Assembly (NCBI RefSeq): GCF_014195535.1
Contig: NZ_JACIBY010000003.1
Span: 562,440 to 626,439 of the forward strand
Length of the DNA: 64,000 bases
Direction of reading: 5' to 3'
Source of the DNA: Runella defluvii
GTDB lineage: Bacteria > Bacteroidota > Bacteroidia > Cytophagales > Spirosomataceae
Position 1 is the first letter of the stretch. Every line of letters starts with the position of its first letter. Positions 21,737 to 54,376 of this stretch are shown here, piece by piece. The notes below the pieces were generated by a model that was not told the DNA's origin, did not search any database, and worked only from the letters and a program-made list of their open reading frames with translations. The translations under genes and the position numbers were made by a program.

Positions 21737-21811
21737 GAGGTTTCTCAAAACCTCAGAAAACAAATTCAACACCCAATATTTCACGACGGGGTGGTTTTGA
21801 GAAACCTCCCG
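21737..21811. repeat. Two TGAG-loop hairpins downstream of the DUF5686 gene
   Basis: GAGGTTT-CTCA-AAACCTC (21737-21754; loop reads TGAG on the other strand) and GGTTT-TGAG-AAACC (21793-21806), which extends with a T-T mismatch to 21789-21810. Both carry the GGTTTTGAGAAACC core found in other intergenic regions of this window, here in opposite orientations. Confidence 0.75.
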
Positions 21812-21824
21812 CACAGTTAAAGTA

Positions 21825-21849
21825 AAAAAGGCGTAAATTGCGCCTTTTT
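21825..21849 (+). terminator. Rho-independent terminator
   Basis: AAAAAGGCG (21825-21833) and CGCCTTTTT (21841-21849) form a stem with a 7-base loop and a terminal T-run. It ends the DUF5686 transcript and lies 40 bases before the next ATG. Confidence 0.75.
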
Positions 21850-21889
21850 GTATTTTATCCATTTCCAATACACTCAATTTACACCCACA

Positions 21890-24535
21890 ATGTCCAAGAT
21901 TTACTTCGCGACGTTATCCGTCTTTCTACTTTTTCTTTTCAACATCACCTCTTTTTGGAACACAAACTCCAACAGCTTAACAAACGTTACCGTCACCAAG
22001 GCCGATTCGCTTCCCAATGCCAGTAGTTGGCCTGCCGAACTGGCCATTAGTCACTTTGCAGGAGCCGACCTCACCCCTAGCCCAGCTTGTTTGGCAGTGG
22101 CACCTACGGGCGAAGTCTATGTTGGTGTCGATATGATTGGTTCATTAGGAAAAAAACCAGGCAACGGCCGCATCGTTCGATTGGTTGACTCCAACAACGA
22201 CGGCAAAGTGGATTCCCACACGGTTTATGCCGTTGTTGACAACCCCCGTGGTATTATTTCGATGGGCGATAAAGTTTATGTTTTACATACCGTTTTTTCC
22301 AAAGAAACAGGTATCGCCTCGGGCATGGACTTGGTGGTTTTTGAAGATAAAAACCACGATGGCGTGGCTGATGGCCCTTCCAGTCCGTTAATTCAACACA
22401 TTAGCTCGCCTAAATTTTTACAAAGTCGCGGTACTGACCACGCCACCAACGGGATTCGGATGGGGATTGATGGATGGATATACATTGCCGTGGGCGATTT
22501 TGGTTTCCACAACGCCACCGACCGAAGTGGCAAAAAAATGACCATGCTTGGTGGTGGCGTTGTGCGCGTTCGTCCTGACGGCACCGAAATGGAAGTTTAT
22601 ACCCACGGACTTCGTAACATTTACGACGTGGCGATTGACCCTTACATGAATATTTTTGCCCGTGGAAATACCAACGATGGCGGCGGATGGAACGTTCGGT
22701 TCAGCAACCAAATCCAATCTGGCGAATATGGCTACCCTGTGTTATTCAAACACTTTACCGACGAAATCATCCCTGCACTTATCGATGTTGGCGGAGGCTC
22801 TGGAACGGGTGCTTTGTTTATGGACGACGACACTTGGCCTGCTCAATACAACCAAGTACCTATGATGGCCGATTGGGGACGCAATCAATTGTACATTCAC
22901 CGCGTGACAGCCGATGGCCCAAGTTTTACCCAAAAAGAAGAAAGTTTTGTAAAATTAGCCCAAATCACCGACGTTGACGTGGACGCTTCGGGCCGTGCTT
23001 ACCTTTCAGCTTGGGACGGGGCAGGTTATTCAGGAAATCCCAAAAAAGGATTTGTCGTAAGAGCTACTCCTAAACAATGGACGTATAAATCGTTCAAAAA
23101 CCCTCAGGAACTTTCTATTTCAAAATTGGTTGACCTCCTAAAATCAGGAAGCGGCGTGGCTCGTCTAGCTGCCCAGCAAGAGCTTCTCACCCGCCCCTCC
23201 GACAAAACTGTAAAACCTGTTTGGGCGTTGGTAACCAATGCTAAACTTCCATTGGTCGTACGAATCGCAGCAATGTACACGTATGCTCAAACCGCTGGTG
23301 TGAATGCCAATGACAATTTAGCCAAATTGACTACAGATGCAGCCATGCGTGAGTATGCGCTTCGGGCTTTGGCCGACCGTAAAATTTACAATTCTAACGT
23401 TTCAAGTGGTACATTTATCCAAGCATTAAGTGATGGTTCTCCTCGCGTGCGTCTGGCAGCTACTGTCGGACTTGGTCGTCTTGGAAACGCTGATGCGGCA
23501 CAAGCACTTCTTAAAACACCTGTACCAGCGAGTTTTGCTCCACCAGCAATGGGAACCGAAGGGCCACATGCAACCCCTAATTCGGCGATTATTCTACCTC
23601 ACGTGGCAGTGCGTTCATTGATTGCTATCAACGCCGTCGATGCTTGTGTGAAGGCCATTGGCACTGAAAACTCCACCCTTGCGCTTTGGGCACTTCGCTA
23701 CATGCACGACCCGAAAGCAGTTGCGGGATTGATCAATGCCTACCAAAAATCAAACGACGCTACCCTTAAAAAGCAAATCATTGTTACGCTTTCCCGTTTG
23801 TACAAAAAAGAAGCCGATTACGACGGTTCGTGGTGGTGGAGTACTCGCCCCGACACGCACGGCCCTTATTATAAAGGCATTACGTGGGAAGCTTCGACGA
23901 ATATCAAAGATTTCTTGATTGAAGAATCGAAAAAATTAAACGACAAACCCTTCTTTGTGGATCTCAACAGCCGTCATCGCATGGAAATACCTGAGTTTGG
24001 GGTAGAAGAAGTCGCCGCAGTGAAGGAAGAGGTAAAGATTGATTTGGACAAAATCCGTAATAAAAAAGGACAAGTAGGTGAAGCTTCGATTGAAGATGTA
24101 ATGCTTGCCATGGCCAAAATCCAAGGTGATGCAGCTTTAGGTAAAACGCTATTTACGCAGCAAGGTTGTATCGCTTGCCACAGTTTATCAAAAAGCGAAC
24201 CCATGAAAGGGCCATTTATGGGACAAATTGGTTCGATTATGAACCGTGAGCAAATTGCAGAGTCAATCTTGAAGCCAAATGCGTCGATTTCACAGGGTTT
24301 TGCATCGGTGACTATCACAGCTAAACGCAACAAAATTTACTCAGGTTTTATCACCGAAGAATCGTCGGCTCGCGTTGTTTTGAGAGACATTGCTGGACAA
24401 GTTTATACCATTAAAACTGCCGACATCGTTAGTCGCAAAGAAATGGAAACATCAATGATGCCTTCGGGTTTGGTCAATGCCCTCTCTTACGAGGAATTTG
24501 CCTCATTGTTAACCTTTTTGTCGCAACAAAAGTAA
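21890..24535 (+). CDS. Membrane-bound sugar dehydrogenase-like beta-propeller with HEAT repeats and cytochrome c
   Basis: The start at ATG 21890 (MSKIYFATLSVFLLFLFNITSFW) gives a secretory signal; the longer frame does not. The 881-residue protein has three parts. The first is a glucose/sorbosone-dehydrogenase-like propeller with calcium-type loops (DSNNDGKVDSHTVYA, DKNHDGVADGPSS, GTDHATNGIRMGIDGW). The second is a HEAT-like helical section (residues 410-650). The third is a cytochrome c domain with GCIACH at about residues 760-765 and a C-terminal heme-binding module of the kind seen in planctomycete-type membrane dehydrogenases. It would oxidise a sugar in the periplasm and pass electrons to a c-type carrier. 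The DUF1080 gene follows 24 bases later. Confidence 0.88.
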   Translation: MSKIYFATLSVFLLFLFNITSFWNTNSNSLTNVTVTKADSLPNASSWPAELAISHFAGADLTPSPACLAVAPTGEVYVGVDMIGSLGKKPGNGRIVRLVDSNNDGKVDSHTVYAVVDNPRGIISMGDKVYVLHTVFSKETGIASGMDLVVFEDKNHDGVADGPSSPLIQHISSPKFLQSRGTDHATNGIRMGIDGWIYIAVGDFGFHNATDRSGKKMTMLGGGVVRVRPDGTEMEVYTHGLRNIYDVAIDPYMNIFARGNTNDGGGWNVRFSNQIQSGEYGYPVLFKHFTDEIIPALIDVGGGSGTGALFMDDDTWPAQYNQVPMMADWGRNQLYIHRVTADGPSFTQKEESFVKLAQITDVDVDASGRAYLSAWDGAGYSGNPKKGFVVRATPKQWTYKSFKNPQELSISKLVDLLKSGSGVARLAAQQELLTRPSDKTVKPVWALVTNAKLPLVVRIAAMYTYAQTAGVNANDNLAKLTTDAAMREYALRALADRKIYNSNVSSGTFIQALSDGSPRVRLAATVGLGRLGNADAAQALLKTPVPASFAPPAMGTEGPHATPNSAIILPHVAVRSLIAINAVDACVKAIGTENSTLALWALRYMHDPKAVAGLINAYQKSNDATLKKQIIVTLSRLYKKEADYDGSWWWSTRPDTHGPYYKGITWEASTNIKDFLIEESKKLNDKPFFVDLNSRHRMEIPEFGVEEVAAVKEEVKIDLDKIRNKKGQVGEASIEDVMLAMAKIQGDAALGKTLFTQQGCIACHSLSKSEPMKGPFMGQIGSIMNREQIAESILKPNASISQGFASVTITAKRNKIYSGFITEESSARVVLRDIAGQVYTIKTADIVSRKEMETSMMPSGLVNALSYEEFASLLTFLSQQK

Positions 24536-24559
24536 CCTACCTTTCAAACTATTTTTGAT

Positions 24560-25420
24560 ATGAAATACGCAGTAATTGTCTTTTTAAGCCTTTGTGTTAC
24601 GTCTGTTTTTGGACAAAAAAAGGCCGACAAACAAGAATGGCAGCAACTTTTCAACGGTAAAAACCTTGATGGTTGGGATATTAAAATCCGTGGGAACGAC
24701 CTCAACGACAACTTTGGCCAAACGTTTCGGGTTGAAGATGGGAAAATGGTCGTTCGCTATGACCAATACGATGATTTTAAACGCAAATACGGCCATATTT
24801 TCTACAAAGGCGACTTTTCTTACTACCGCATTGCGGTTGAGTATCGTTTTGTAGGTGAGCAAGCTCCCAAAGGCGAAGGCTGGGCGTGGCGCAATAGCGG
24901 CATCATGGTACACGGCCAAACGGCCGCTTCGATGGGTAAAGACCAAGATTTTCCTGCGTCTATCGAAGTTCAATTGCTTGGCGGTGACGGAAAAAAACGC
25001 ACTACTTGTAACTTGTGTACTCCTGGAACAAACGTTGTGATGGATGGCAAATTAATCACCCAACACTGCATCAATTCTACGTCACAAACCTACAACGGCG
25101 ACCAATGGGTGCGGGCAGAAGTGTTAGTTTTGGGCGACTCGCTCATTCAGCATTTTGCCAACGGTGAAAAAGTGTTGGAATACAACAAACCTCAGTGGGG
25201 AGGCGGCAACGTGAGCGGACATGACCCCAATCTGTTTGTTAACGGAAAACTTCTCGACCACGGCTCTATCTCGCTTCAAAGTGAAAGCCACCCCGTTGAA
25301 TTTAGAAAAGTAGAATTGTTGAACTTAAAAGGTTGCATGGACCCTAAAGCCCTTAATTTCAAGTCGTACTACGTCAAAGAAGACAATTCGACTTGCCAAT
25401 ATGGGAAGAAGAAAAAATAA
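24560..25420 (+). CDS. DUF1080 family protein, probable 3-keto-glycoside hydrolase
   Basis: The 286-residue protein has a signal peptide (IVFLSLCVTSVFGQ). The concanavalin-like domain opens QQLFNGKNLDGWDIKI and contains GWAWRNSGIMVHGQ, SIEVQLLGGDGKKRTTCNLC and SISLQSESHPVEFRKVEL, all standard DUF1080 landmarks. Members hydrolyse 3-keto-disaccharides or 3-keto-glycosides. The C-terminus carries GCMDPKALNFKSYYVKEDN with a final C-x-Y, a small calcium-loop-like repeat common in secreted Bacteroidota proteins. It is almost certainly co-transcribed with the dehydrogenase upstream, which would create the 3-keto group it then uses. Confidence 0.87.
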   Translation: MKYAVIVFLSLCVTSVFGQKKADKQEWQQLFNGKNLDGWDIKIRGNDLNDNFGQTFRVEDGKMVVRYDQYDDFKRKYGHIFYKGDFSYYRIAVEYRFVGEQAPKGEGWAWRNSGIMVHGQTAASMGKDQDFPASIEVQLLGGDGKKRTTCNLCTPGTNVVMDGKLITQHCINSTSQTYNGDQWVRAEVLVLGDSLIQHFANGEKVLEYNKPQWGGGNVSGHDPNLFVNGKLLDHGSISLQSESHPVEFRKVELLNLKGCMDPKALNFKSYYVKEDNSTCQYGKKKK

Positions 25421-25425
25421 CCTTC

Positions 25426-25517
25426 GTGGTAGGGGTTTCTCACAACCCCTACCACAAAAACTCGGGTTTTGAGAAACCCTCAGCACGAGTCAGAAACCCT
25501 CTGCACGGGTGGGTTTA
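25426..25517. repeat. TGAG-type hairpins between convergent DUF1080 and ketosynthase genes
   Basis: GTGGTAGGGGTT (25426-25437) pairs with AACCCCTACCAC (25444-25455) around TCTCAC, the complement of a TGAG-containing loop. Next, GGGTTT-TGAG-AAACCC (25464-25479) is the direct-orientation form, nested in an ACTCG/CGAGT outer pairing. A decayed AAACCC/GGGTTT pair follows. The array can serve as a bidirectional terminator for the flanking convergent genes. Confidence 0.7.
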
Positions 25518-26459
25518 TTTCCGCAGCAACATAGCTCCGTACGAATAACCACCTCCAAAAACAGTAATAACAATATGGTCTCCTGGTTGAAAACGGCTCC
25601 AATGTTCAGACAACCCAATGGCGCAACCCGCACAGCCCGTATTTCCGAGGTATTGAATGTTTGAGATTAGTTTTTCTTCGGGCAAGCCAAGCGTATTCAT
25701 TACATTCATACTAATGCGCAAATTAGCTTGGTGTGGCAAAACATAAGACACATCTTCCACCGTTAGGCCACATTTTTCAAGTACCGTTAAACTAGCCTTG
25801 GGCATGTAGGTACAAGCATTAATAAACACATCTCGTCCAAAGGGCATAATCACTCCACGCTCGTTAGGGCGCAATACCACGGCTTCCGTAGCTTTCCCGC
25901 TGGTAGCAGCACCACCTGTCACCAAGGATCTCATTTCCATATCCCCATCACTTACACGCTCTTTTGTAAAGAGTAAAGCCGCTGCCCCGTCGCCCCACAA
26001 ATGCCCTGATACGGTATCGGTTTCGTTGTAGTAGCCAGTGTTATGCTCTGAGGTAATCACCAACGCTTTTGACGCCTTGTTCATCGCAAAATATCCCTCC
26101 ACTACTTCTACGGCATTCAACAATGAAGAACAAGCCGAGGAAATCGTCACCACAGGAATATCCGCTACTTCGATAAAATGTTGCACCGCATGACCAAGCG
26201 TAACAATGGTATCATAAGCAGTATATGTAGCCCCTACGATTAAATCAATTTCTGATATATCAATTTGAATTTTATCCAATAATGACTTTACGGCTTCGAC
26301 CCCCATGCTGTGGGAGTTTTCGGCCGAGGCTGCCTTGCGTCGGAGCTGAATGCCCGTACGCTGCACTATCCACTCATCAGACAGCCCATTGAGTTTAGTA
26401 AAATGTTCGTTATCAACTACTTGTTCTGGCAAGTAGTGAGCCACTTGGTGAAGAAACAT
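25515..26459 (-). CDS. 3-oxoacyl-ACP synthase III-like ketosynthase
   Basis: The 314-residue protein is a thiolase-fold condensing enzyme. The catalytic triad fits KAS III: Cys110 in TISSACSSLLNAV, His243 in LPHQANLRI and Asn273 in YLGNTGCAG. The N-terminus VAHYLPEQVVDNEHF and WIVQRTGI are also family motifs. The true FabH primes fatty acid synthesis from acetyl-CoA and malonyl-ACP. This copy has no fatty-acid genes beside it and could instead serve a specialised lipid or polyketide, as stand-alone FabH paralogues do. It is convergent with DUF1080 and divergent from the glycan operon. Confidence 0.88.
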   Translation of the reverse strand: MFLHQVAHYLPEQVVDNEHFTKLNGLSDEWIVQRTGIQLRRKAASAENSHSMGVEAVKSLLDKIQIDISEIDLIVGATYTAYDTIVTLGHAVQHFIEVADIPVVTISSACSSLLNAVEVVEGYFAMNKASKALVITSEHNTGYYNETDTVSGHLWGDGAAALLFTKERVSDGDMEMRSLVTGGAATSGKATEAVVLRPNERGVIMPFGRDVFINACTYMPKASLTVLEKCGLTVEDVSYVLPHQANLRISMNVMNTLGLPEEKLISNIQYLGNTGCAGCAIGLSEHWSRFQPGDHIVITVFGGGYSYGAMLLRK

Positions 26460-26808
26460 ACAAGGGTTGGTTTATACCTAACTATTTATGGCCGAAAGTT
26501 AAACATTTCGTAGAAAACGTGGTACAAAATATTAAAATCTTACAAGAAAGTCGTCAATAAATCCTAACAATTTTCTTTTGGAGATTCAATACTTACTTAC
26601 TTTTAAATAAACTTAGACCAATACATTCAACCCAAAAACCACAGAAAAGTTCGATGGCTACGTAATAATTCCGCAAAACTGGGGTTCAACGTCTTCCTAT
26701 AACCAGCCATTCAACCCACCTTCCATCAACTTTTTTCCCCCGAAAAATAAAATCTCTGCCCTAAATGACGCTCGGTTATGGAAAGTGCCGTATTTTTGCC
26801 AAATTCCA
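26460..26808. other. Divergent intergenic region upstream of the glycan operon
   Basis: The gap of about 350 bases between the ketosynthase and the first GT2 has no credible gene on either strand. TATTTTTG at 26791-26798 fits the -7 consensus for the operon, 10 bases before the ATG, which would give a very short leader. No convincing -33 element or operator was seen. Confidence 0.45.
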
Positions 26809-27789
26809 ATGACTGTTGATTTATCGCAAATGCCTCAAACCAAATTATTACTCGTAGTACCCTGCTATAACGAAGAAGAAATTCTTACTAAAACACATCG
26901 TACGCTTCAGCAGTACCGTACTCGGTTGGTTCAAGAAGGTAAAATTGCCCCTGAAAGTAAGATTTGTTACGTCAACGATGGAAGTCGTGACCGTACTTGG
27001 CAACTTATCGACGACATTTGCAACACGGATACCCACGCCATTGGGATTAAACTTTCGCGAAATTTTGGCCATCAAAGTGCTATTTTAGCTGGTCTAATGC
27101 ACCATATTCAGGATTTCGATTGCTTTGTCACGATTGATGCTGACCTGCAAGACGACGTAGAGGCCATTGGTCAAATGCTCGACCAACACCACGACGGGGC
27201 TATGGTGGTTTATGGCGTGCGCGACGACCGCAGTTCTGATACATGGTTTAAGCGTACCACCGCCGAGGGGTTCTATAAAGTGATGCGTTGGATGGGCGTG
27301 CCTGTGGTATTCAACCACGCCGATTTTCGCCTCATGGATCGCCGTATTTTAGAAGAATTTTCCCATTTTAAGGAAGTTAATTTGTTTTTGAGGGGTATTA
27401 TTCCACTCATCGGCTTCCGTTCCGAGAAGGTTTTTTACAAACGTTTTGAGCGAGAAGCAGGTGAAACCAAGTACCCGCTCAAAAAAATGCTCCTTTTTGC
27501 GTGGAATGGTGTCACCTCTTTCAGCACTTTCCCAATGCGATTGGTACTCTATTTTGGCGTATTCAATTTCTTAATTGCCATGGGCATTGGGGTGTATATT
27601 GGCGTCTCGTACCTTTTTGGAAGTACGGTAGCGGGTTGGACATCGATTGTGCTTCCCATGACCTTTTTTAGCGGGGCTAATATGATTGCCCTCGGCTTAA
27701 TTGGGGAATACGTTGGAAAAATTTACGAAGAAGTAAAAGGCAGACCTAGATACATCATTGAGAAAGTAACAACTGACGCGGCTCAGTAA
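26809..27789 (+). CDS. GT2 glycosyltransferase, DPM1/ArnC-like with C-terminal membrane segments
   Basis: ATG 26809 (MTVDLSQMPQTKLLLVVPCYNEEE) was chosen over GTG 26785. Of 326 residues, the first 230 or so are a GT-A domain: VVPCYNEEE, VNDGSRDRTW, the SRNFGHQSAILAGL acceptor loop, DADLQDD with the metal-binding acidic cluster, and the FKERVFYKR-type late motif. Two membrane spans follow (LVLYFGVFNFLIAMGIGVYI and the segment with FFSGANMIALGLIGEYVGKIYEE). The family transfers a sugar from a nucleotide donor to a polyprenyl phosphate at the inner face of the membrane. It opens a five-gene plus-strand operon for surface glycan or glycolipid building. Confidence 0.9.
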   Translation: MTVDLSQMPQTKLLLVVPCYNEEEILTKTHRTLQQYRTRLVQEGKIAPESKICYVNDGSRDRTWQLIDDICNTDTHAIGIKLSRNFGHQSAILAGLMHHIQDFDCFVTIDADLQDDVEAIGQMLDQHHDGAMVVYGVRDDRSSDTWFKRTTAEGFYKVMRWMGVPVVFNHADFRLMDRRILEEFSHFKEVNLFLRGIIPLIGFRSEKVFYKRFEREAGETKYPLKKMLLFAWNGVTSFSTFPMRLVLYFGVFNFLIAMGIGVYIGVSYLFGSTVAGWTSIVLPMTFFSGANMIALGLIGEYVGKIYEEVKGRPRYIIEKVTTDAAQ

Positions 27790-27824
27790 AATCGTTCGAT
27801 ATCGTCATAAAACAGCAGCATTCA

Positions 27825-29246
27825 ATGCTAAAAAAACTACAACAACCTCTTTTTCAAGACCTCTTCAATGTTGGGCTACTTGCGGTGGCAATCGTCCCTT
27901 TATTGGCGTTGTCTTTTTATAATCACCCCTCTCCTGTCGATGATTATTGCTACATAGATACGGTCTTTAAGTATGGTTATTTTGAAGCCATGAACTTTTA
28001 TTACACAGGTTGGACGGGCAGATACTTTGGCATCCTTCTCAATCACTCTAACCCGTTGGTGGTCAAATGGGCGGGAGGTTTTAAGTTACTTTCTTTTTTG
28101 CTCGTTTTGGGACTTACGGGTAGTTTATACGCGCTATGTAAAGAGTTGTTCACGAAATGGAGCCGTTGGGCTATTTTGGGTGTTACGGGTGGGATTATGC
28201 TACTCTTTATCCTCAAAATCATGAGCATTGTGGAGGCTTTTTACTGGATGGCGGCTTTTGTCACTTATACCGTTCCTAACATCCTTACTTTGTATTGGCT
28301 TACGGTGATGATACGTATGTACCAACAGCCCAACGGAATGCGCCAAAAACTCACTGCCCTTTTTGCTGGATTCTTGGTGTTCGCAGTCATTGGTTGTAGC
28401 GAAACCAACCTTACGATTATGGTGCTGCTAGTGGCAGGTTGGTTTGGTTACCAGCTTGTTATTCGTCGTACGTGGGACAATTTGGCGTTTTTTATGGTCA
28501 TCGTCGCCGTGTTTTCATGCTACATTTTCTTTACCTCCCCTGGCAACGTCCTCCGCATGAATGGCAATCCTGAAGGACGAAATTTTACCCTTTCGACGCT
28601 ACAGTCACTCAAAAAACTGGCTCAACTTAGCATCGACTGGATTTTCAGAACTCCGCTTTTGGTATTTTCGATTCTTTGGATTGCCGTTTTACCTCGCCTT
28701 TTTGACAAATATACCACCGCTATTCCCTATTTCAGGGTGCCTATTTGGATTGTCATACTCACTTATTTCGGCATTTTGTTTGTGCAAATTTTTCCTTCTT
28801 ATTACGGTATTGGAATTGAACCTGCCCCACGCGTCATCAACTCTGTTTATTTTTACTTTTTGTTGGGCTGGTTTTACACGCTCTCCGTCGTCTTGTATTG
28901 GCTCTACAACAACCAAATTTTAGGCGCGCAACATTGGTATTTGCCGCCTTCCATCAAAGCCGTTTTGGCACTACTTATTTTAGTAAGCACCCTCTTTAGC
29001 AGCAACTTACGAATGGTATATGGCGACTGGCTACGGGGACGGGCTGCTGCTTACGACCAAGAATTAAAAGCACGCTACGCTTATATTGAAAGCACGCCAG
29101 GTGATACTGTTTATGTTTCCCCGCTGCAATCAAAACCCCAATCAATTTATTTGGACGACGCAAACCCCGACCCCAAACACTGGTGGAGCAAGTGCATGGG
29201 GGGATATTTCGGTAAAAAAGCAGTTGTACTTAAAGCCACTCCCTGA
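27825..29246 (+). CDS. Multi-spanning membrane protein, DUF6056-like (possible GT-C glycosyltransferase)
   Basis: The 473-residue protein has about ten hydrophobic spans. Its first periplasmic loop reads PSPVDDYCYIDTVFKYG, with an acidic pair, and YYTGWTGRYFG, the hallmark of DUF6056-like proteins. GT-C enzymes that use polyprenyl-phosphate sugars carry such an acidic motif in the same loop. Coming after a polyprenyl-phosphate GT2, it could transfer the sugar on the periplasmic side. The catalytic role is inferred. Its stop overlaps the next start by one base (TGATG), which indicates translational coupling. Confidence 0.7.
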   Translation: MLKKLQQPLFQDLFNVGLLAVAIVPLLALSFYNHPSPVDDYCYIDTVFKYGYFEAMNFYYTGWTGRYFGILLNHSNPLVVKWAGGFKLLSFLLVLGLTGSLYALCKELFTKWSRWAILGVTGGIMLLFILKIMSIVEAFYWMAAFVTYTVPNILTLYWLTVMIRMYQQPNGMRQKLTALFAGFLVFAVIGCSETNLTIMVLLVAGWFGYQLVIRRTWDNLAFFMVIVAVFSCYIFFTSPGNVLRMNGNPEGRNFTLSTLQSLKKLAQLSIDWIFRTPLLVFSILWIAVLPRLFDKYTTAIPYFRVPIWIVILTYFGILFVQIFPSYYGIGIEPAPRVINSVYFYFLLGWFYTLSVVLYWLYNNQILGAQHWYLPPSIKAVLALLILVSTLFSSNLRMVYGDWLRGRAAAYDQELKARYAYIESTPGDTVYVSPLQSKPQSIYLDDANPDPKHWWSKCMGGYFGKKAVVLKATP

Positions 29247-33397: not shown

Positions 33398-33565
33398 GTC
33401 AGGTTGCTCACAACCTGACCATAGCATGTAAATCAGGCTATGAACAACCTGAACTACAAAACTTCGGTTTTGAGAAACCGAAGGCACAGTTACAACCTAA
33501 CTTGCTCGCTATCCTCAGGTTTTGAGAAACCTGACTCACAAAACTTCGGTTTTGAGAAACCGAAG
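33398..33565. repeat. Cluster of five TGAG-loop hairpins after the MBOAT gene
   Basis: The copies are: GTCAGGTTG-CTCA-CAACCTGAC (33398-33419); a decayed TCAGG/CCTGA copy with loop TGAA (33433-33452); CTTCGGTTT-TGAG-AAACCGAAG (33462-33483); TCAGGTTT-TGAG-AAACCTGA (33515-33534); and CTTCGGTTT-TGAG-AAACCGAAG (33544-33565). Stems differ in sequence but are each perfectly paired, apart from the decayed one. They lie between convergent genes. Confidence 0.8.
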
Positions 33566-44357: not shown

Positions 44358-44687
44358 TAGAGGAATGTGATGAGTGAATAGTTTAGAGTTTGCATCTTCA
44401 ACAAGTTTAGTCAAGGCCAATATACCGTGTGCAATACGGGTTAGTTCGTCATGAATCCACTCAAAACCATAAGGCGTTTCAAGCAATTCTATGTTTTTTT
44501 TACCACTTAAAATATGGTTTGGGTGATTCATCCACCCAATAAACTGCGGCAATTCTCCAAAAACATCCTCCCCACATTTACATAACACCGCAAGTTGAAG
44601 AGAATATTCCTCGACATCTTTTCCTATTGGCACAGAAATGATTTCAAGTTCGCCCCAATTATTTACCTCAAACATCGTACATGGCAT
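44358..44687 (-). pseudogene. DUF2384 (MbcA/ParS/Xre-type) antitoxin C-terminal domain remnant, in frame with the M28 gene
   Basis: These 110 codons form a continuous frame with the M28 signal peptide. The segment from about residue 38 reads KCGEDVFGELPQFIGWM, followed by NHPNHILSGKKNIELLETP and YGFEWIHDELTRIAHGILA. This follows the toxin-binding domain of MbcA/ParS/Xre antitoxins (VFG-x-x-x-x-x-x-W-x-x-x-PN-x-x-L-x-G-x-x-P-x-x-L-L-x-T-x-x-G to L-x-R-I-x-x-G). The usual N-terminal helix-turn-helix is missing: an in-frame TAG lies just before ATG 44687 and the def stop is 88 bases away. No RES-type toxin is adjacent. It is probably a truncated orphan. Whether it is translated, alone or as a fusion, is not known. 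Confidence 0.6.
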
Positions 44688-44775
44688 TTGGCGTAAAAAT
44701 AATGACTATTTTACATAACAACCCTGTGAAAAATGTTTTAATTATAAGTTCTTACCTACGAATTTACGAAGCCTA

Positions 44776-45273
44776 CTACTTCGAGGGCGTAGGTCTCCAA
44801 CGAAACGACTGTGTATCAATCGCGCGCATGGTACACAGAATGCCATCAAGATGGTCGTATTCATGTTGCAAAAGTTCTGACAACGCATCTTCCATCGGCC
44901 ATTCTTGCGGCTGCCAGTGTTCATCGAAATATTTTATGGTCAACGACTTATGGCGCTTTACTTTAACCAACAAATTGGGAAAGCTCATGCAGTCGTCCCA
45001 CAGCTCAAACGTTTCTTCGCTCAAATTCACCAGTTCTGGATTAATAAAAACTACGGGGCGGTCTATGTTCATGTAAATCAACCGTTTCATAATTCCTAGC
45101 TGCGGTGCAGCAATGGCTCGTCCAAAGCCATATTTTGTGCGTACTTCTTGCATTACATTGTGGAGGTCGGCCACCCAGCCCAACAACTCGTCGTACTCTT
45201 CGGGTAAAACAGGGGCACATACCTCGTACAATCGCGGGTCGCCCAGTAAAAGTAAATCGGCTAATGTTTTCAT
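44776..45273 (-). CDS. def: Peptide deformylase
   Basis: The 165-residue protein has the three deformylase motifs. Motif 1 is GFGRAIAAPQLG (residues 49-60). Motif 2 is WDDCMSFP with the metal-binding Cys95, where most family members have EGCLS. Motif 3 is LQHEYDHLDG with His137, Glu138 and His141. The enzyme removes the formyl group from nascent proteins. Position 2 of the set (DDCMS in place of EGCLS) marks a divergent subtype, and there is no fmt gene beside it, so it may be a secondary deformylase. It is divergent from the sugar-dehydrogenase gene across the repeat array. Confidence 0.88.
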   Translation of the reverse strand: MKTLADLLLLGDPRLYEVCAPVLPEEYDELLGWVADLHNVMQEVRTKYGFGRAIAAPQLGIMKRLIYMNIDRPVVFINPELVNLSEETFELWDDCMSFPNLLVKVKRHKSLTIKYFDEHWQPQEWPMEDALSELLQHEYDHLDGILCTMRAIDTQSFRWRPTPSK

Positions 45274-45320
45274 CTTTTTCTTCGTGTCTAAGCACCGTTG
45301 TAAATCAAAATCTTATGTGT

Positions 45321-45699
45321 GGTTGGTTTCTCAAAACCAACCAACTCAGCTTTCTCAAAACCCTTACAAACGAGGTTTTGAGAAACCTCTAGTGTCAGAT
45401 TTGAGAATCTGACGTCACTCGTGAGGTGCGGTTGGTTTCTCGTGATGTGCCGTTGGTTTCTCAAAACCAACCAACTCGGGTCTCTTAAAACCCTTGAAAA
45501 CGAGGTTTTGAGAAACCTCCAACGTCAGATTTGAGAATCTGACGCCACTCGTGAGGTGCCGTTGGTTTCTCGTGATGTGCCGTTGGTTTCTCAAAACCAA
45601 CCAACTCAGGTCTCTCAAAACCAACCGACTCAGCTTTCTCAAAACCCTTACAAACGAGGTTTTGAGAAACCTCTTGCGTCAGATTTGAGAATCTGACGC
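45321..45699. repeat. Three-unit tandem array of TGAG-loop hairpins
   Basis: The array sits in the 522-base divergent gap between def and the next gene. Each unit has three hairpins in fixed order. The first is GTTGGTTT-CTCA-AAACCAAC (45321-45342, 45452-45471, 45582-45601). The second is GAGGTTT-TGAG-AAACCTC (45372-45389, 45502-45519, 45656-45673). The third is GTCAGATT-TGAG-AATCTGAC (45394-45413, 45523-45544, 45676-45699). Units are about 130 and 154 bases apart; the last carries an extra partial copy. ACTCGTGAGGTG linker sequence is also repeated. The region explains several spurious short reading frames. Confidence 0.85.
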
Positions 45700-45795
45700 C
45701 ACTCACAAACTCTTTATAATAAGTAGCGAGTATCTTAGACCTTTTTGAGACTTTATTTCATAAGCATTCATTCGCCCCTAAAACCCCAACCAGCA

Positions 45796-48708: not shown

Positions 48709-48741
48709 GCAAGAGGCAAGAGTCGGACCGTCGCACGGCAA

Positions 48742-48804
48742 GGGGCAAGGGGCAAGGGGCAAGGGGCAAGGGGCAAGGGGCAAGGGGCAAGGGGCAAGGG
48801 GCAA
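48742..48804 (+). repeat. Nine perfect tandem copies of GGGGCAA
   Basis: Counting base by base gives nine exact 7-base units over 63 bases. It lies between two convergent genes (stops at 48708 and 48863), directly before a terminator hairpin. On the plus strand, runs of four G every seven bases make a strong G-quadruplex candidate. Copy number is likely to vary between isolates. Confidence 0.95.
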
Positions 48805-48810
48805 GAAAAA

Positions 48811-48853
48811 CTAAAGTAAAGGGCGAATGAGTTCCTTCTGCCCTTTACTTTAG
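48811..48853. terminator. 14-bp terminator hairpin between convergent genes
   Basis: CTAAAGTAAAGGGC (48811-48824) and GCCCTTTACTTTAG (48840-48853) are perfect complements around a 15-base loop. It follows the GGGGCAA array and lies 10 bases from the stop of the minus-strand gene. Confidence 0.75.
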
Positions 48854-48862
48854 CCAATAATA

Positions 48863-49945
48863 TTATAAACGAACGACTTCGCCCGTACGCACTGATTCGT
48901 CGCACGCAAACGCGATTTGAAGGCTGTTTACGGCGTCCGCCATGTGGTCGGTTAGGTCAACATCTTCTACGATTGCCTTTAAGAAATAAGCTTGTTCGCG
49001 GTTACAAAGCTCTTGGTGGTCTGGCTCGTCGGTCAGGTTAATCCACTCATCAGGTTTTGTAAATGCGTTGTTTTCGTCAATATCAGCATGGTGATAGCGC
49101 AACGACTCCGTTTTGGTGTGTGCGTCCACGTTGTCCGATTTACCCGCCCCACCTGCATCTTTTGCTACAATCGACACGCAGCCTTTAGGGCCTACCACGT
49201 CTTTCACAAAAAATGCCGTTTCGCTCATCATCGGGCCCCAGCCTGCTTCGTACCAACCTACGGAACCATCCTCAAAACGAATTTGGAGTTGTCCGTAATT
49301 GTAATTTCCCGCAGGAATATCGTCGGTCAAGCGAGCGCCAATGGCCGATACCCACACTGGTTTTGAACGGGTCATTTGGCACATAACGTCGATGTAATGC
49401 ACGCCGCAGTCCACGATTGGGCTAAGGCTTTTCATCAAATTGCGGTGTACGTCCCACATATAGCCGTGGCTTTGCTGGTTGAGATTCATCCTCATTACCA
49501 ACGGCTTACCAAGCGTTTGTGCCAATTCCACAAACTTTTCCCACGACGGATGATGGCGCAAAATATACCCTACCACCAATTTTTTATTGGCTTTCACGGC
49601 TGCTTCTACCACGCGCTTCGCTCCTTCGACGGTATCAGCAACGGGCTTTTCGATAAATACGTGACAGCCGTGCTCAAAGGCCATGACGGCAAACGCTTCG
49701 TGCGTGTCGGGGTAGGTGGAGATACAAACCGCGTCGGGTTGAGTCGCTTGAAGGGCTTCTGCATAATCGGAATACAATGCGTAACCGCCCCCTAATTTTT
49801 CGTTTAGAACTTCTTTACTTTTTCCCGTTGAGACAATACCACAAATTTCGAAACCTTCAAAATTATGATAGGCTGTGGCGTGAGAGGCGCCCATGTTACC
49901 GCATCCAACGACAAGGACGCGCACTGGTTTGGGGGATGTTGACAT
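48863..49945 (-). CDS. Gfo/Idh/MocA family oxidoreductase
   Basis: The 360-residue protein starts with a nucleotide-binding fold (VRVLVVGCGNMGASHATAYH) followed by the family's EKP motif in HVFIEKPVADTVEGAK, where the lysine is catalytic. GYILRHHPSWEK and the substrate-site YIDVMCQMT stretch (DCGVHYIDVM, with the Asp and His typical of the family) complete it. Such enzymes oxidise or reduce sugar ring hydroxyls with NAD(P). There is no signal peptide, so it acts in the cytoplasm. It lies beside the second sugar-dehydrogenase gene and would fit the reduction or oxidation step of 3-keto-sugar metabolism; the substrate is inferred. Confidence 0.88.
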   Translation of the reverse strand: MSTSPKPVRVLVVGCGNMGASHATAYHNFEGFEICGIVSTGKSKEVLNEKLGGGYALYSDYAEALQATQPDAVCISTYPDTHEAFAVMAFEHGCHVFIEKPVADTVEGAKRVVEAAVKANKKLVVGYILRHHPSWEKFVELAQTLGKPLVMRMNLNQQSHGYMWDVHRNLMKSLSPIVDCGVHYIDVMCQMTRSKPVWVSAIGARLTDDIPAGNYNYGQLQIRFEDGSVGWYEAGWGPMMSETAFFVKDVVGPKGCVSIVAKDAGGAGKSDNVDAHTKTESLRYHHADIDENNAFTKPDEWINLTDEPDHQELCNREQAYFLKAIVEDVDLTDHMADAVNSLQIAFACDESVRTGEVVRL

Positions 49946-50197
49946 AGGTAGTAATGAAAGGAAATGGTTTTAACTGTAAAAGTACATCATTCATTCTTAC
50001 ATACCATCATTTCTTCAAAATGGGCTGTTGTGGCACAGTAATTTTTGGGTAATAAATTGGAGAATTGTTTTAAGATTATTTATCTATTATTTTTTATTTA
50101 TACAATTATATAATCTTTTATATTTAATATATTTGATTATTTTTTGTTAATTTCTATTCAAGAATAAACTTTATATGTTTCCATTTTATTCTCTCTC
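49946..50197. other. Very AT-rich divergent intergenic region
   Basis: This stretch between the oxidoreductase and the metE leader is dominated by A and T, especially 50070-50190, with no reading frame and no convincing repeat. It probably contains upstream promoter elements of both genes. Confidence 0.5.
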
Positions 50198-50205
50198 TAC
50201 CTTTG
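50198..50205 (+). promoter_or_regulatory. Predicted -7 element of the metE transcript
   Basis: TACCTTTG fits TAnnTTTG exactly. Transcription from here would begin about 10 bases before the riboswitch P1 helix, which supports the placement. No clear TTTG lies at -33. Confidence 0.5.
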
Positions 50206-50221
50206 CAGAAGTTCTTTCAAT

Positions 50222-50353
50222 CAATTGCCGTTTTTGGTTTCAGCGGAATTTGTTTTTGCTGAATTAAAAAGGAATCGTGTGTAACTCACGAACTGACGTG
50301 CAACCGTAAATCGCCCAAAGCGATAAGTCGAGACACTTGCCAAAAACGAATTG
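50222..50353 (+). ncRNA. Cobalamin riboswitch in the metE leader
   Basis: The P1 helix is formed by CAATT and CGTTTTTGG on the left (50222-50237) with CCAAAAACG and AATTG on the right (50340-50353). Between them are the conserved parts of the B12 aptamer: AAAAAGGAAT, then the CGTG-CACG hairpin, then CTGACGTGCAACCGTAA (the GCAACYGTAA-type core), then AAGTCGAGACACTTGCC, matching the 3' B12-box (AGYCMGgAgaCCkGCC). It lies upstream of B12-independent methionine synthase, the usual target, which is shut off when cobalamin is present. Confidence 0.88.
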
Positions 50354-50384
50354 ACGGAGGCTTTCACGAGTCGAAGCCGACGTC
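50352..50384 (+). promoter_or_regulatory. Candidate expression-platform hairpin downstream of the riboswitch
   Basis: TGACG (50352-50356) pairs with CGTCA (50380-50384), and GGCTT (50359-50363) with AAGCC (50374-50378) inside it. It begins within the last bases of P1, so the two helices overlap and could be mutually exclusive. It lies about 70 bases before the ATG. No U-run follows, so control may be of translation. Confidence 0.45.
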
Positions 50385-50453
50385 AGGCAGTGGGTAAGGA
50401 AAGAGCAAATAAGTTTTTCAACTTTTTTGTTTCATTCAACTCCTTTTACTCTT

Positions 50454-52763
50454 ATGCTCAAAAACAACCTTGGGTATCCTCGCATTGGCAGCCGCCGCGA
50501 GCTCAAAAAAGCCTGTGAAGCCTACTGGGCGGGCAAAATCTCACAAACCGAACTGTTAGAAACAGGCCGCCAAATCCGCCTTCACAACTGGCAGCTGCAA
50601 CAACAAGCAGGCATTGACCTCATTCCGTCCAACGATTTTTCTTTGTACGACCATGTGCTCGACCTCAGCCTAACCGTGGGTGCTATTCCTGCTCGCTACC
50701 AAGAAATCTTAAATGCCAATCCTCAAAACAATTCCCTCGATGTCTATTTTGCTATGGCTCGGGGCTACCAAAAAGAGGGGCTTGACATCAAAGCGTTAGA
50801 AATGACCAAATGGTATGATACCAATTACCATTACTTAGTGCCTGAGTTCACCAAAAATCAGACGTTTAGCCTTTCTTCAGACAAAATTTTCAATGAGTTT
50901 GATGAAGCCAAATCGGCAGGAATTTTGACGAAACCCGTGCTTTTAGGGCCTGTTTCGTACTTGCTTTTGGGCAAAGAAAAAGAAGCCGATTTTCACCGCT
51001 TAGAATTATTACCTCGCTTGCTTTCCGTCTATTACGACATCATTGAGCGACTGACCCAACAAGGAGCCGTGTGGATTCAATTCGATGAACCCTGCCTTGC
51101 ACTTGATTTAAGCTACAAAGAAAAAGACGCCCTCCGAACGGCCTACGGCACGATTCGTACCCGTTTCCCCCAACTGAAAATTATGCTGGCTACTTACTTT
51201 GATGGCTTACGCGACAACCTGCTGGTAGCTTCTCTTTTGCCAGTTTGTACGCTACATGTCGATTTGGTACGTTTCCCCAGTCAATTTGAGAACCTATTAA
51301 CAGCCATTCACGAACCTATGTCGTTGTCGCTTGGTGTAGTTGACGGACGCAACATTTGGAAAAACGACTACACCCGTTCTCTCACTTTCATCCAAAAAGC
51401 CATTGATAAGTTAGGAGAAGCAAGGGTAATGATTGCGCCCTCTTGCTCCTTGCTGCATACGCCCTGCGATTTGGAATTGGAGAAAGACGAAACCAGACTT
51501 CCCTCTGAGATAAAGCAATGGATGGCTTTTGCCAAACAAAAGCTTCAAGAAATCAACGATTTATACCTCATCGCTACCCAAGGAAACGACGCTAAATGGG
51601 CACAAAATAAAGCAGACATCGAAAGTCGGCGTAGGTCGCCATTGATTCACAAGCCGCACGTAAAACAACGCATTGATGCGCTCAGCGAGGCCGATACCCA
51701 GCGTAAAAGTCCGTTCTCAACCCGTCAACATCTTCAAAAAGCGTTCTTGCAGTTGCCCACGTTCCCCACAACGACCATTGGGTCATTCCCCCAAACAGAC
51801 GCCATTCGTCAGCTTCGCGCTCGCTACAAAAGCGGCGAGATTTCCCCCCAACACTACGAGGAAATCATCGAAAACCACACAAAAGAAGCGATAAAATGGC
51901 AGGAAGAAATAGGTTTGGATGTGTTGGTACACGGCGAATTTGAGCGTAATGACATGGTGGAGTATTTCGGCGAACTGTTGGAAGGGTATGCTTTTACGCA
52001 AAATGGTTGGGTACAAAGCTATGGTTCACGTTGTGTGAAACCACCAATTATCTATGGCGATATTGAACGCCCACACCCCATGACCGTACGATGGGCTACT
52101 TACGCCCAATCGCTGACCTCAAAACCAGTGAAAGGCATGTTGACGGGGCCAATTACGATTTTGCAATGGTCGTTTGTTCGGGACGACCAAGCTCGAAGTG
52201 AAACAATGTTTCAGCTTGCCTTGGCGATTCGTGATGAAGTATTGGATTTGGAAAAAGCAGGTATTCGAATCATCCAAATCGACGAAGCTGCGCTGCGTGA
52301 AGGACTTCCGCTACGCAAAAGCGACCGACAAGCCTATCTGGATCATTCCGTCAAAGCCTTTCGGGTGGCATCTTCCGCAGTGGCTGACCAGACCCAAATC
52401 CATACCCACATGTGTTATTCGGAGTTTAATGACATCATAGAATCCATTGCGGAGATGGATGCGGACGTTATAACGATTGAAACGTCCCGCTCACAAATGG
52501 AGCTATTGGAGGCTTTTTATACCTTCAACTATCCCAACGAAATTGGCCCAGGCGTGTATGACATCCACAGCCCCCGCGTGCCCAGCGTCGAGGAAATGGT
52601 GCAATTGTTAGAAAAAGCATTGGCCGTACTCCCCGCTGATCATCTTTGGGTCAATCCCGACTGTGGTTTAAAAACGCGCCGTTGGCCAGAAACTGAGAGG
52701 GCGCTCAAAAACATGGTACAAGCAGCACAACACGTGAGAGAAACCATCAACGAAGAAGTTTAA
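50454..52763 (+). CDS. metE: 5-methyltetrahydropteroyltriglutamate-homocysteine methyltransferase (B12-independent methionine synthase)
   Basis: The start at ATG 50454 (MLKNNLGYPRIGSRRELKKACEAYW) matches the conserved N-terminus of the family; nine codons of the longer frame are not needed. The 769 residues contain both MetE barrels. The C-terminal barrel opens with PTTTIGSFPQTDAIRQLR and holds the zinc ligands in IHTHMCYSEF and VNPDCGLKTRRW plus the intervening glutamate (IQIDEAALREGLP). The enzyme transfers the methyl group of methyltetrahydrofolate to homocysteine without cobalamin. The leader carries a cobalamin riboswitch, and a strong terminator follows. Confidence 0.97.
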   Translation: MLKNNLGYPRIGSRRELKKACEAYWAGKISQTELLETGRQIRLHNWQLQQQAGIDLIPSNDFSLYDHVLDLSLTVGAIPARYQEILNANPQNNSLDVYFAMARGYQKEGLDIKALEMTKWYDTNYHYLVPEFTKNQTFSLSSDKIFNEFDEAKSAGILTKPVLLGPVSYLLLGKEKEADFHRLELLPRLLSVYYDIIERLTQQGAVWIQFDEPCLALDLSYKEKDALRTAYGTIRTRFPQLKIMLATYFDGLRDNLLVASLLPVCTLHVDLVRFPSQFENLLTAIHEPMSLSLGVVDGRNIWKNDYTRSLTFIQKAIDKLGEARVMIAPSCSLLHTPCDLELEKDETRLPSEIKQWMAFAKQKLQEINDLYLIATQGNDAKWAQNKADIESRRRSPLIHKPHVKQRIDALSEADTQRKSPFSTRQHLQKAFLQLPTFPTTTIGSFPQTDAIRQLRARYKSGEISPQHYEEIIENHTKEAIKWQEEIGLDVLVHGEFERNDMVEYFGELLEGYAFTQNGWVQSYGSRCVKPPIIYGDIERPHPMTVRWATYAQSLTSKPVKGMLTGPITILQWSFVRDDQARSETMFQLALAIRDEVLDLEKAGIRIIQIDEAALREGLPLRKSDRQAYLDHSVKAFRVASSAVADQTQIHTHMCYSEFNDIIESIAEMDADVITIETSRSQMELLEAFYTFNYPNEIGPGVYDIHSPRVPSVEEMVQLLEKALAVLPADHLWVNPDCGLKTRRWPETERALKNMVQAAQHVRETINEEV

Positions 52764-52766
52764 ACA

Positions 52767-52814
52767 AATTACCCTACGTTTGGTTTAAACATTTTACCTG
52801 AACGTAGGGTAATT
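52767..52814 (+). terminator. Terminator-like hairpin after metE
   Basis: AATTACCCTACGTT (52767-52780) and AACGTAGGGTAATT (52801-52814) pair perfectly over 14 bases around a 20-base loop, four bases after the metE stop. Confidence 0.75.
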
Positions 52815-52833
52815 CCAAAAAACGACAAAAGTT

Positions 52834-53337
52834 ATGTTTCACTTTCCATCTTCCAAACCTTTTCATAAAAATTCTTCAATCGCTCCTTTATTAAGCTGGG
52901 ATTTTGCCCATCCGTTGTTACAAAAGCAAATAGAAGTAGGGGAAGATTATAAATCCATCTCGACCCTTTCTGAAAGATTTCAATGGGATTTAGAATTAGA
53001 AACAAAACAACTCTTACGAAACAATTATATCCTAGTAATCACCGACTTATCCCAAGAAATAGTATGGGTAAGTAAGCAATTTGAAACAATGACCCATTAT
53101 CCCAAAAACGAGGTCATCGGACGGAAACCTACGTTCTTGCAGGGTGAAAAAACAAGCACAAAATCGCTGCACTTGATACGCGAAAAGTTGTCGAATGTCG
53201 AGCAAGTAGCGACCAAACTTCTCAACTACCGTAAAAATGGGGAAGCCTATTGGTGCCAAGTAACCATTCTCCCCATCCACAACACTGACGGTCTTTTGAC
53301 GCATTTTATGGCGATTGAGAAAGAAGTTGATTGTTAG
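52834..53337 (+). CDS. PAS-domain protein, LOV-like without the flavin cysteine
   Basis: The 167-residue protein has an N-terminal helical lead and one PAS domain from about residue 60. Motifs are YILVITDLSQEIVWVSKQFETMTHYPKNEVIGRKPTFLQGEKTS and LLNYRKNGEAYWCQVTILPIHN with a PAC-like end HFMAIEKEVD. The GRKPTFLQG loop aligns with the GRNCRFLQG loop of LOV photosensors, but the photoactive cysteine is replaced. The domain may still bind a flavin or another ligand. There is no output domain, so it probably works through partner proteins. It follows metE after a terminator and has no obvious partner next door. Confidence 0.8.
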   Translation: MFHFPSSKPFHKNSSIAPLLSWDFAHPLLQKQIEVGEDYKSISTLSERFQWDLELETKQLLRNNYILVITDLSQEIVWVSKQFETMTHYPKNEVIGRKPTFLQGEKTSTKSLHLIREKLSNVEQVATKLLNYRKNGEAYWCQVTILPIHNTDGLLTHFMAIEKEVDC

Positions 53338-53492
53338 TTAAGTACTCAAGCACAACGGGGGCAATGCAGCTGCCTTCTTTGTTCACTATGTGTTTATTCT
53401 AATGTGCTCTATGTGTTTTAGAAGGTCTTGCATTCACACACCCCCATTGGCTTTGTCTTTTAGGTAAAGAGGAAGTATTCCAAAAAGTTGGC

Positions 53493-54191
53493 TCAATTCA
53501 ATTGCTGCTCCAGTTCAAGCGCCATTGGTACCAAAACGTGGTCTTCGATGATGGCGTGTTTACGAAGTTCCAATTCAAACAGCTCCACTTGGTTCAAGAA
53601 AATTTTATACGGCAAAGGCACGGATTCTTCGCCAGAATAACGCCGAATCATCTGACTTACTTCTTGCAGCTCGTCTTCGATGGGCGAGTGGGAATCAATA
53701 AATTGTTGGATACTAAAGTTCGATTTTTCGGCTGAAGTCCGAAGTTCGGCGGGCTGTTTTGAAACCTCAATGAGTTTCTGAATATAAGGAAACAGCTCTT
53801 TCTCTTCCATCCGAATGTGCTCAATCAAATGGGTCTTGTAGTCATTGAAGAAATAGGCCAAACTCGCCAATAGCTGATGGCTTTGTCCATATTTGCTAAA
53901 AATATGCACCAACGACTGCTCAATTTCGGGAAGTTTTTTGGTAAGATAATAACGGTGAGTCGCTTGTAAATAGGCCAGAATTTCTCCAATCGAGAACTTC
54001 TGCATTTTTTCAAAAGGAAAGTCTTCTTCGTTATTGTATAAATCTAAAATGAGCTCGATTAGCTCAGGATTCATGTCGATTACTTTGCTTCCTGCTTTTT
54101 GCTCTTTGTCTTGCAGGGAAGAATCACCGAACCTTTCAACAACCAATTGGTAGGTTTTGTCGGTATCAATAAAATCATGTAGTGCAGCCAT
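53493..54191 (-). CDS. Hemerythrin-domain protein (RIC/YtfE-like)
   Basis: The 232-residue all-helical protein carries the residues of a non-haem di-iron hemerythrin fold: ATHRYYLTKKLPEIEQ, HLIEHIRMEEKELFPYI, FIDSHSPIEDELQEV and LRKHAIIEDHVLVPMALE. The pattern and the placement of HxxxE motifs resemble RIC/ScdA/YtfE proteins that repair iron-sulphur clusters after nitrosative or oxidative stress. The N-terminal DUF542-like cysteine motif of ScdA is absent. It stands alone. On the minus strand a TTTG N16 TAGATTTG promoter lies at 54214-54241. Confidence 0.82.
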   Translation of the reverse strand: MAALHDFIDTDKTYQLVVERFGDSSLQDKEQKAGSKVIDMNPELIELILDLYNNEEDFPFEKMQKFSIGEILAYLQATHRYYLTKKLPEIEQSLVHIFSKYGQSHQLLASLAYFFNDYKTHLIEHIRMEEKELFPYIQKLIEVSKQPAELRTSAEKSNFSIQQFIDSHSPIEDELQEVSQMIRRYSGEESVPLPYKIFLNQVELFELELRKHAIIEDHVLVPMALELEQQLN

Positions 54192-54213
54192 ACTAGTTCA
54201 TTTGGGTTGAAGC

Positions 54214-54241
54214 CAAATCTACCCACTGCTGCGTATTCAAA
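54214..54241 (-). promoter_or_regulatory. Predicted promoter of the hemerythrin-domain gene
   Basis: TTTG at 54238-54241 and TAGATTTG at 54214-54221 on the minus strand match -33/-7 elements with a 16-base spacer, slightly short. The ATG is 22 bases from the -7 element. Confidence 0.4.
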
Positions 54242-54263
54242 CTATGATAAAAATCAGGAAAAG

Positions 54264-54376
54264 GTTTGGGGTTTACAGTTTTGGGTTTCGTGTTTGGGAT
54301 TTAAGGTTTTGAGAAACCTTGGCGGCGGTTATTAGTAACCGCCGCCACTTTGGGTCCAAACAGGAAACCCCAAACT
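54264..54376. repeat. Nested inverted repeats with TGAG- and TTAG-loop hairpins
   Basis: AAGGTTT-TGAG-AAACCTT (54303-54320) is directly followed by GGCGGCGGTTA-TTAG-TAACCGCCGCC (54321-54346), an 11-bp perfect GC-rich stem. Outside these, GTTTGGGGTTT near 54265 is complemented by AAACCCCAAAC near 54366, so the whole block can fold as nested helices. It lies between the hemerythrin gene start and the malic enzyme end. Confidence 0.75.

Follow-up and report, generated by a model that had tools for sequence, protein, structure and literature searches.

Constant-tip, free-stem intergenic hairpins of Runella defluvii are very probably REP-type repeats of a Runella and Spirosoma RAYT transposase

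What are the small hairpins that recur between the genes of Runella defluvii, with the same loop TGAG and with stems that differ from copy to copy? The question is raised by a window of 64,000 nucleotides (contig NZ_JACIBY010000003.1; C3:562440-626439 of the 8.0-Mb genome, G000), in which such hairpins lie in five intergenic gaps, at 21.7, 25.4, 33.4, 45.3 and 54.3 kb. We propose, with a probability of about 0.9, that they are repetitive extragenic palindromic (REP)-type repeats of a REP-associated tyrosine transposase (RAYT) of Runella and Spirosoma, often set in inverted doublets resembling REPINs and in tandem arrays. The RAYT is a tyrosine transposase of the HuH type with TnpA-REP and the IS200/IS605 transposases as relatives, and it is this tamed (domesticated) enzyme that probably copies the repeats surrounding it. 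The unusual trait of the family compared with REPs is that the basal stem sequence is free while the tip and the tag are fixed.

In the window, 19 places match the core GGTTTTGAGAAACC with at most two mismatches, compared with 1.02 expected by chance (100 shuffles, the largest giving 4). All 19 lie within the five gaps, which confirms the TGAG-loop hairpins that a sequence-only reading of this DNA had reported there. The exact core occurs 251 times in the genome (138 and 113 by strand), and the reversed pattern 0 times. Both hairpin orientations are present, as had been claimed. Perfect hairpins with a stem of at least 7 bp and a loop of 4 were also counted in 680 kb (C1:1-400 kb and C4:1-280 kb), and 51 of the 114 found have the loop TGAG or CTCA, the next commonest loop occurring 6 times. 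As a control, three first-order Markov sequences gave 55-60 hairpins each, with that loop in 0, 0 and 2. The arrays share stems internally, as would be the case if the copies were chance hairpins or the decay products of one duplicated array, but this explanation is refuted by the genome count, the hairpin-loop census and the diversity of stems (42 separate clusters in the sampled sequence and 20 distinct fully paired stems), and we give it practically no weight.

The sequence-only reading had seen no copy in a gene. This holds for the window, where none of 15 cores lies inside an open reading frame (ORF) of at least 100 amino acids (aa), and fails elsewhere, where 20 of 94 cores overlap a mechanically called ORF. 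Ten of these 20 lie in one 192-aa ORF, which sits within the array at C4:123,455-124,197 and is presumably not a gene. Overall, 20 of 109 cores fall in mechanical ORFs, against a coding fraction of 0.90-0.92, and the repeat therefore shows the high copy number and mostly intergenic position of a REP. The window gaps do include convergent, tandem and divergent settings (2, 2 and 1, respectively). A run of at least four T stands beside the hairpin in only 17 and 16 of 132 copies on its two sides, and intrinsic terminators were rejected on this ground, in line with the earlier remark that the hairpins are not simply terminators.

The anatomy of one repeat was derived from copies picked on the core alone (GGTTTCTCAAAACC or GGTTGCTCACAACC) in 864 kb of the Runella genome, a sample that includes three 20-kb pieces chosen for hits and 60 kb around the RAYT gene. 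Identical contexts were counted once and copies with N or near an end were dropped, which gave 90 unique T-core and 42 unique G-core copies. On the strand where the loop reads CTCA, the layout is 5′-GTGN, four free bases, GGTTT, CTCA, AAACC and the complement of the four. In T-core copies, Watson-Crick pairing at the four outer positions is seen in 81, 73, 57 and 50 of 90 (shuffled means 24.3, 26.5, 24.3 and 25.0), and a fifth pair, at the tag place, is at chance (17 of 90 versus 18.9 shuffled). Because the four outer pairs covary and the next one is at chance, the stem is 9 bp long around a loop of 4, with the GTGN tag at its foot. The first outer pair of G-core copies is Watson-Crick in 37 of 42 (13.7 shuffled), and the next three are weaker, with 19, 15 and 16 of 42 compared with 8.9, 8.4 and 10.9.

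The tag, which precedes the hairpin when the CTCA strand is read 5′ to 3′, had been overlooked by the sequence-only reading. Among 132 unique copies from C1:1-600 kb, C4:1-280 and 540-600 kb and the window, GTG is found at -13..-11, a fixed distance from the loop, in 81, and in the mirrored position in 2. The spellings are GTGC in 27, GTGT in 14 and GTGA in 6 of the 90 T-core copies, and GTGA in 11, GTGC in 10, GTGT in 5 and GTGG in 2 of the 42 G-core copies. As in REPs, a palindrome follows the tag, here a 9-bp stem directly after the 4 bases.

The covariation of the four outer pairs bears out the claim that the stems vary and pair; "always" was too strong, since only 37 of 138 unique copies form all four outer pairs, while 39 form three, 37 two and 25 one. 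When arms were swapped between sites, all four pairs formed in 0.9%. Full pairing is found in 32 of 81 tagged copies versus 5 of 57 untagged ones, and at least three pairs in 51 of 81 versus 25 of 57 (Fisher p 0.04). The 37 fully paired copies lie at 21 sites and have 20 distinct basal stems; 16 stems occur at one site only and one, TTTC, at four.

A REP-associated transposase gene, which had been suggested as something to look for, was found at C4:567 kb within an array of the repeats. The genome has seven Y1_Tnp matches, and this is the only one with repeats around it, on both sides; at the other six the core is absent from the 1.8-3.3 kb searched at each locus. The 180-aa protein passes the NCBIfam model NF047646 (REP-associated tyrosine transposase) with 101.6 bits at a cut-off of 80. 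The best Foldseek match in the PDB for its AlphaFold2 model (14 sequences, pLDDT 83.5, pTM 0.80) is 4er8, TnpA-REP with its REP hairpin (E 3.9e-9, TM 0.64/0.69), which the text of PMC6006769 gives as the E. coli enzyme, and the next matches are the ISDra2 and IS608 transposases; a sequence search of the PDB was weak (4er8, E 0.074). The clade conserves HuH (N60-H61-I62-H63) and Y137, apart from one locus, L086, in which H61 is Y. A second protein of the genome, at L037 1429-1953 (G000:C2:562207), also passes NF047646, with 100 bits; none of these repeats lies in the surrounding 3.2 kb, where no search was made for repeats of its own.

In three Runella species, R. defluvii and its sisters G165 and R. 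limosa (G162), the RAYT gene is inside an array of the repeats, which in the two sisters recur about every 133 bp; a RAYT gene flanked by the same repeat is the arrangement of a REPtron. Within up to 1.5 kb on each side, 10 of 13 clade loci have a perfect TGAG/CTCA hairpin (stem of at least 6) and 3 have none. All six Spirosoma orthologues, 52-59% identical, have the exact core in their locus, in genomes of 5-10 Mb that hold 24-112 copies each.

We counted exact cores in 222 genomes of the family Spirosomataceae. At least five copies are present in 22, namely 9 of 13 Runella and 13 of 36 Spirosoma genomes, and any other genome has at most 3. The RAYT clade, taken at a cut-off of at least 100 bits (the next score drops to 81), occurs in 13 genomes, 12 of which have at least five copies, compared with 10 of the 209 others (Fisher 3.6e-13; 7e-6 within the two genera; only a guide, as the genomes are related). 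Four of the 13 clade RAYTs are broken or fragments. In Spirosoma G203, among the matches listed (96 of 100 places used), 34 of 37 close pairs read CTCA then TGAG and 23 of the 34 inverted pairs are spaced 29-33 bp, which is the organization of a REPIN. Taken together, the RAYT in the array, the co-occurrence across genomes, these doublets and the copy-number differences between sister species described below support a mobile REP-like element, one of two explanations that the sequence-only reading had offered; its remark that it knew of no named family with this rule was wrong at the level of REPs and RAYTs.

The main blocks of the window align to G165 at 92-96% and to R. limosa at 87-95%. The alignment to G165 starts at 21,737, is broken at the repeat sites at 33.4, 45.3 and 54.3 kb, is intact at 25.4 kb, and is also broken at two repeat-free places near 50.1 and 53.4 kb. 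The 137 bp at 53330-53467 of the window correspond, between otherwise syntenic flanks, to some 8.3 kb in G165 and some 2 kb in G162. Of the 23 clusters that were placed in G165, 14 differ in copy number, two of these through mutated cores and not absences (two C1 sites scored 1 versus 0, for which absence was rejected). The largest difference is at C4:8492, with 8 copies in 587 bp versus 0 copies in 27 bp in G165.

Single copies from C1, C4 and the window were then compared with their orthologues in G165 and G162, the C4 and window copies against both genomes; 168 comparisons were tried, 109 were dropped (no match, not spanned, or a gap) and 59 were left. Among 149 orthologous outer pairs, 123 are the same, 25 are broken by a single change and 1 shows a compensatory double change (window 25,434; T-A here and A-T in G165). 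Compensatory evolution of stems in place thus found no support, with 1 double against 25 single changes. Single sites drift, and the variety of stems seems to come from the copying step or from hairpin repair.

These counts bear on the other explanation of the sequence-only reading, an RNA hairpin recognized by its loop (as a regulator, an mRNA-end stabilizer or a terminator) and selected site by site. A constant loop with a covarying stem and a mostly intergenic position would suit such an RNA, and REPs elsewhere are reported, in the article text on them, to affect mRNA stability and termination. However, the stems look unconstrained at orthologous sites, T-runs are few, a search of Rfam gave no match at the hairpins (its only hit was a cobalamin riboswitch elsewhere), and an RNA role accounts neither for a GTG tag on one side only nor for the array at the RAYT, which makes this explanation very unlikely. 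Recognition of the loop is still likely; the molecule recognized would be single-stranded DNA, and the RAYT its reader.

We suggest that a repeat in single-stranded form, for example at a replication fork, would fold into a stem of 9 bp closed by a loop of 4. The features most likely read by the RAYT would be the GTG tag on the 5′ side, the five apical pairs and the loop CTCA, while at the four basal positions any complementary bases would do, so that the sequence there could drift freely. We infer that the repeats are bound, cut and copied by this RAYT, whatever the sequence of their basal stem. A more tentative idea, which we consider possible but doubtful, is that the basal stem is rewritten at each site by fold-back (template-switch) synthesis, which would copy one arm into the other; with a RAYT that needs only tag, tip and loop, a site could gain a perfect stem of its own. 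The 20 distinct fully paired stems, 16 of them single-site, hint at this, as do perfect stems of 26 bp (L086, about 1358) and 25 bp (L081, about 1461) beside two Spirosoma RAYTs, which surround the tip, have the loops TGAG and CTTA and run past the tag place, the usual stem being 9 bp. Further hints are the paired T-A to A-T change at 25,434 and loops inverted within an unchanged stem: in the fourth gap, three window hairpins read GTCAGATT-TGAG-AATCTGAC, and two of five such hairpins in G165 have the loop inverted in the same stem. That only 1 of 26 changed orthologous outer pairs is compensatory counts against fold-back rewriting.

Several observations weigh against REP-type repeats of this RAYT. 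Most mapped sites are common to the sister species, with mainly the copy numbers differing, and none of them gave a clean empty site from which an insertion product could be defined; at C4:8492, which came closest, a remnant hairpin persists in G165. The parts presumed to be recognized also change, with 20 of 292 orthologous apical pairs broken (272 the same) and loops differing at 10 of 59 orthologous copies. The tag is not the canonical GT[AG]G of REPs, as GTG is fixed and the fourth base is rarely G, and close pairs in R. defluvii occur in all four orientations (22, 23, 30 and 17). G203 shows weaker covariation of the outer pairs, and at the position of the tag it has ACA in 13 of 31 copies and GTG in 3 of 31. 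The Spirosoma clade member L086 is without the first HuH histidine, and G111 has a RAYT with a stop codon and zero copies. Finally, ten genomes with at least five copies are without the RAYT clade (G161, G163, G166, G181, G185, G187, G188, G190, G202 and G208, with 10-104 exact copies), which would fit RAYT loss with relic repeats left behind, or another RAYT.

The same ten genomes, together with the six further Y1 matches, one of which also passes NF047646, could mean that another enzyme moves the repeats and that the RAYT is in the array by chance or as a passenger. Against this, the core is absent at all six of those loci, six of six Spirosoma orthologues have it in their locus despite only 24-112 copies per genome, and tip sequence tracks RAYT relatedness (below); we regard another enzyme as highly improbable.

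REP-type repeats of an atypical RAYT lineage can be compared with known systems as described in the article text cited here. REPs and REPINs with RAYTs of Pseudomonas, Stenotrophomonas and E. coli (PMC3116915, PMC3686654, PMC3733652, PMC8266576) are likewise short intergenic hairpins in many copies, with a one-sided 5′ tag, inverted doublets, tandem clusters, a flanked RAYT and patchy copy number. They differ in the tag, which is GT[AG]G (PMC3686654) and GTGN in Runella, and in being class-specific palindromes, whereas the Runella tip is constant over a basal stem that is free within one genome; in some REP families, complementary stem bases do occur in alternative versions (PMC3733652). The two group 3 RAYTs that were tested are sensitive to the bases of the loop, while the E. 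coli RAYT requires a bulge and the tag (PMC8266576). TnpA-REP subclass 2.6 (RAYT group 5), from Bacteroidetes, has no GT[AG]G REPs and is flanked by "atypical secondary structures" (PMC6006769). Our clade shares with it the phylum, NH[LIV]H, a YIH[QN]NP-like motif, the SS motif, the missing GT[AG]G tag and copies elsewhere in the genome. The clade motifs, compared as described motifs and not as profiles, are NHIH (NYIH in 1 of 8) and SS; different are the missing Q after W (IWD/IWT/IWE), YMHNNP in Runella, and a HuH-Tyr spacing of 74 residues compared with a median of 82 (PMC6006769). IS200/IS605 elements (IS608, ISDra2) share the HuH fold and a hairpin with a 5′ guide tetranucleotide (PMC6006769), whereas here one clade transposase gene in the genome stands against hundreds of stand-alone hairpins. 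Because the GT[AG]G test failed, we class the family as a REP-type element of an atypical RAYT lineage, REP-like in its working, and not as a canonical REP. The passages searched in the REP/RAYT articles do not describe a tip that stays constant while the basal stem is free.

The family provides a sequence-level description for repeats like the "atypical secondary structures" of PMC6006769, as its text presents them. Its hundreds of copies amount to natural mutagenesis, suggesting which parts are needed (tag, tip and loop) and which vary (the basal stem), and offer a place to test fold-back renewal of stems. Lineage-specific tips make partner-specific recognition testable by swapping.

Within the same family, different RAYT lineages go with different tips. 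Each of the 18 named loci in a RAYT genome scan has a perfect hairpin (stem of at least 8) within 300 bp of the gene, with a density of 5.11/kb there versus 0.27/kb at 0.9-3 kb. Among 15 of 17 distant loci (two shorter ones were left out), 10 have a hairpin, with 2.22/kb near the gene versus 0.19/kb further away; an arm with GTC[AG]G is found in 10 of the 18 named loci and in none of the 15. Some flanks of the more distant RAYTs likewise combine one tip with several stem bases: next to the RAYT of G168, GGATT tips have AGTCG and GC as outer arms where the loop is TGC, and TTA where it is GGA. Around the G084 core TTGGTG(TTRT)CACCAA, three varying outer pairs are each Watson-Crick in 12 of 12 copies (5.1-6.2 shuffled), and in G121, whose tip TTGGAG-TTAT is unlike the CTCA tip, two are so in 24 and 23 of 25 (16.5 and 14.4 shuffled). 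RAYT pairs that share a tip are 62% identical on average versus 38% for others (55 pairs, 34 loci), and 0 of 2000 permutations reach the observed value, a result that could come from common descent alone; the comparison used 34 of 43 loci, the others having no core or a short match. The test for one core per RAYT within the genus gave mixed results: GCGTTTGTAACGC, seen beside a G169 RAYT, is commoner in G168 (15) than in G169 (5), and GGATTTGCAATCC, seen beside a G168 RAYT, has its highest count in G164 (17, of which three lie beside a RAYT of that genome), compared with 5 in G168 and 4 in G169.

The window copies are given here on the strand on which the loop reads TGAG, the GTG tag being on the other strand throughout. 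The first gap has a hairpin with the stem GAGGTTT at 21737..21754 (-) and a core with an imperfect outer stem at 21793..21806 (+). In the second, a copy with 12 bp of pairing through the tag place and one mismatch next to the loop (25426..25455, -) is followed by a GGGTTT hairpin (25464..25479, +). The third contains a G-core variant, GTCAGGTTG, at 33398..33419 (-), then CTTCGGTTT at 33462..33483 (+) and again at 33544..33565 (+), each followed by GCAC, the tag on the other strand, and between them TCAGGTTT at 33515..33534 (+).

The fourth gap holds an array of three units. Unit 1 consists of TGGTTGGTTT (45320..45343, -), a degenerate core (45349..45362, -), a GAGGTTT hairpin (45372..45389, +) and the REP-like hairpin GTCAGATT (45394..45413, +). 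Unit 2 has GTTGGTTT (45452..45471, -; preceded by GTGCC on the + strand), a degenerate core with 2 mismatches (45479..45492, -), a GAGGTTT hairpin (45502..45519, +) and the REP-like hairpin CGTCAGATT (45523..45544, +), whose loop is inverted in two of five matching G165 hairpins. Unit 3 has GTTGGTTT (45582..45601, -), two degenerate cores (45609..45622 and 45633..45646, both -), a GAGGTTT hairpin (45656..45673, +) and the REP-like hairpin GCGTCAGATT (45676..45699, +).

The fifth gap has a single AAGGTTT hairpin at 54303..54320 (+), which G165 and R. limosa share at this position. Directly after it, at 54321-54346, lies another hairpin, GGCGGCGGTTATTAGTAACCGCCGCC, also at the same place in both genomes; the R. 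limosa version is GACGGCGG...CCGCCGTC, a paired change. The cobalamin riboswitch (Rfam RF00174, 59.2 bits) is at 50218-50358 (+) of the window, upstream of the ORF at 50427-52763.

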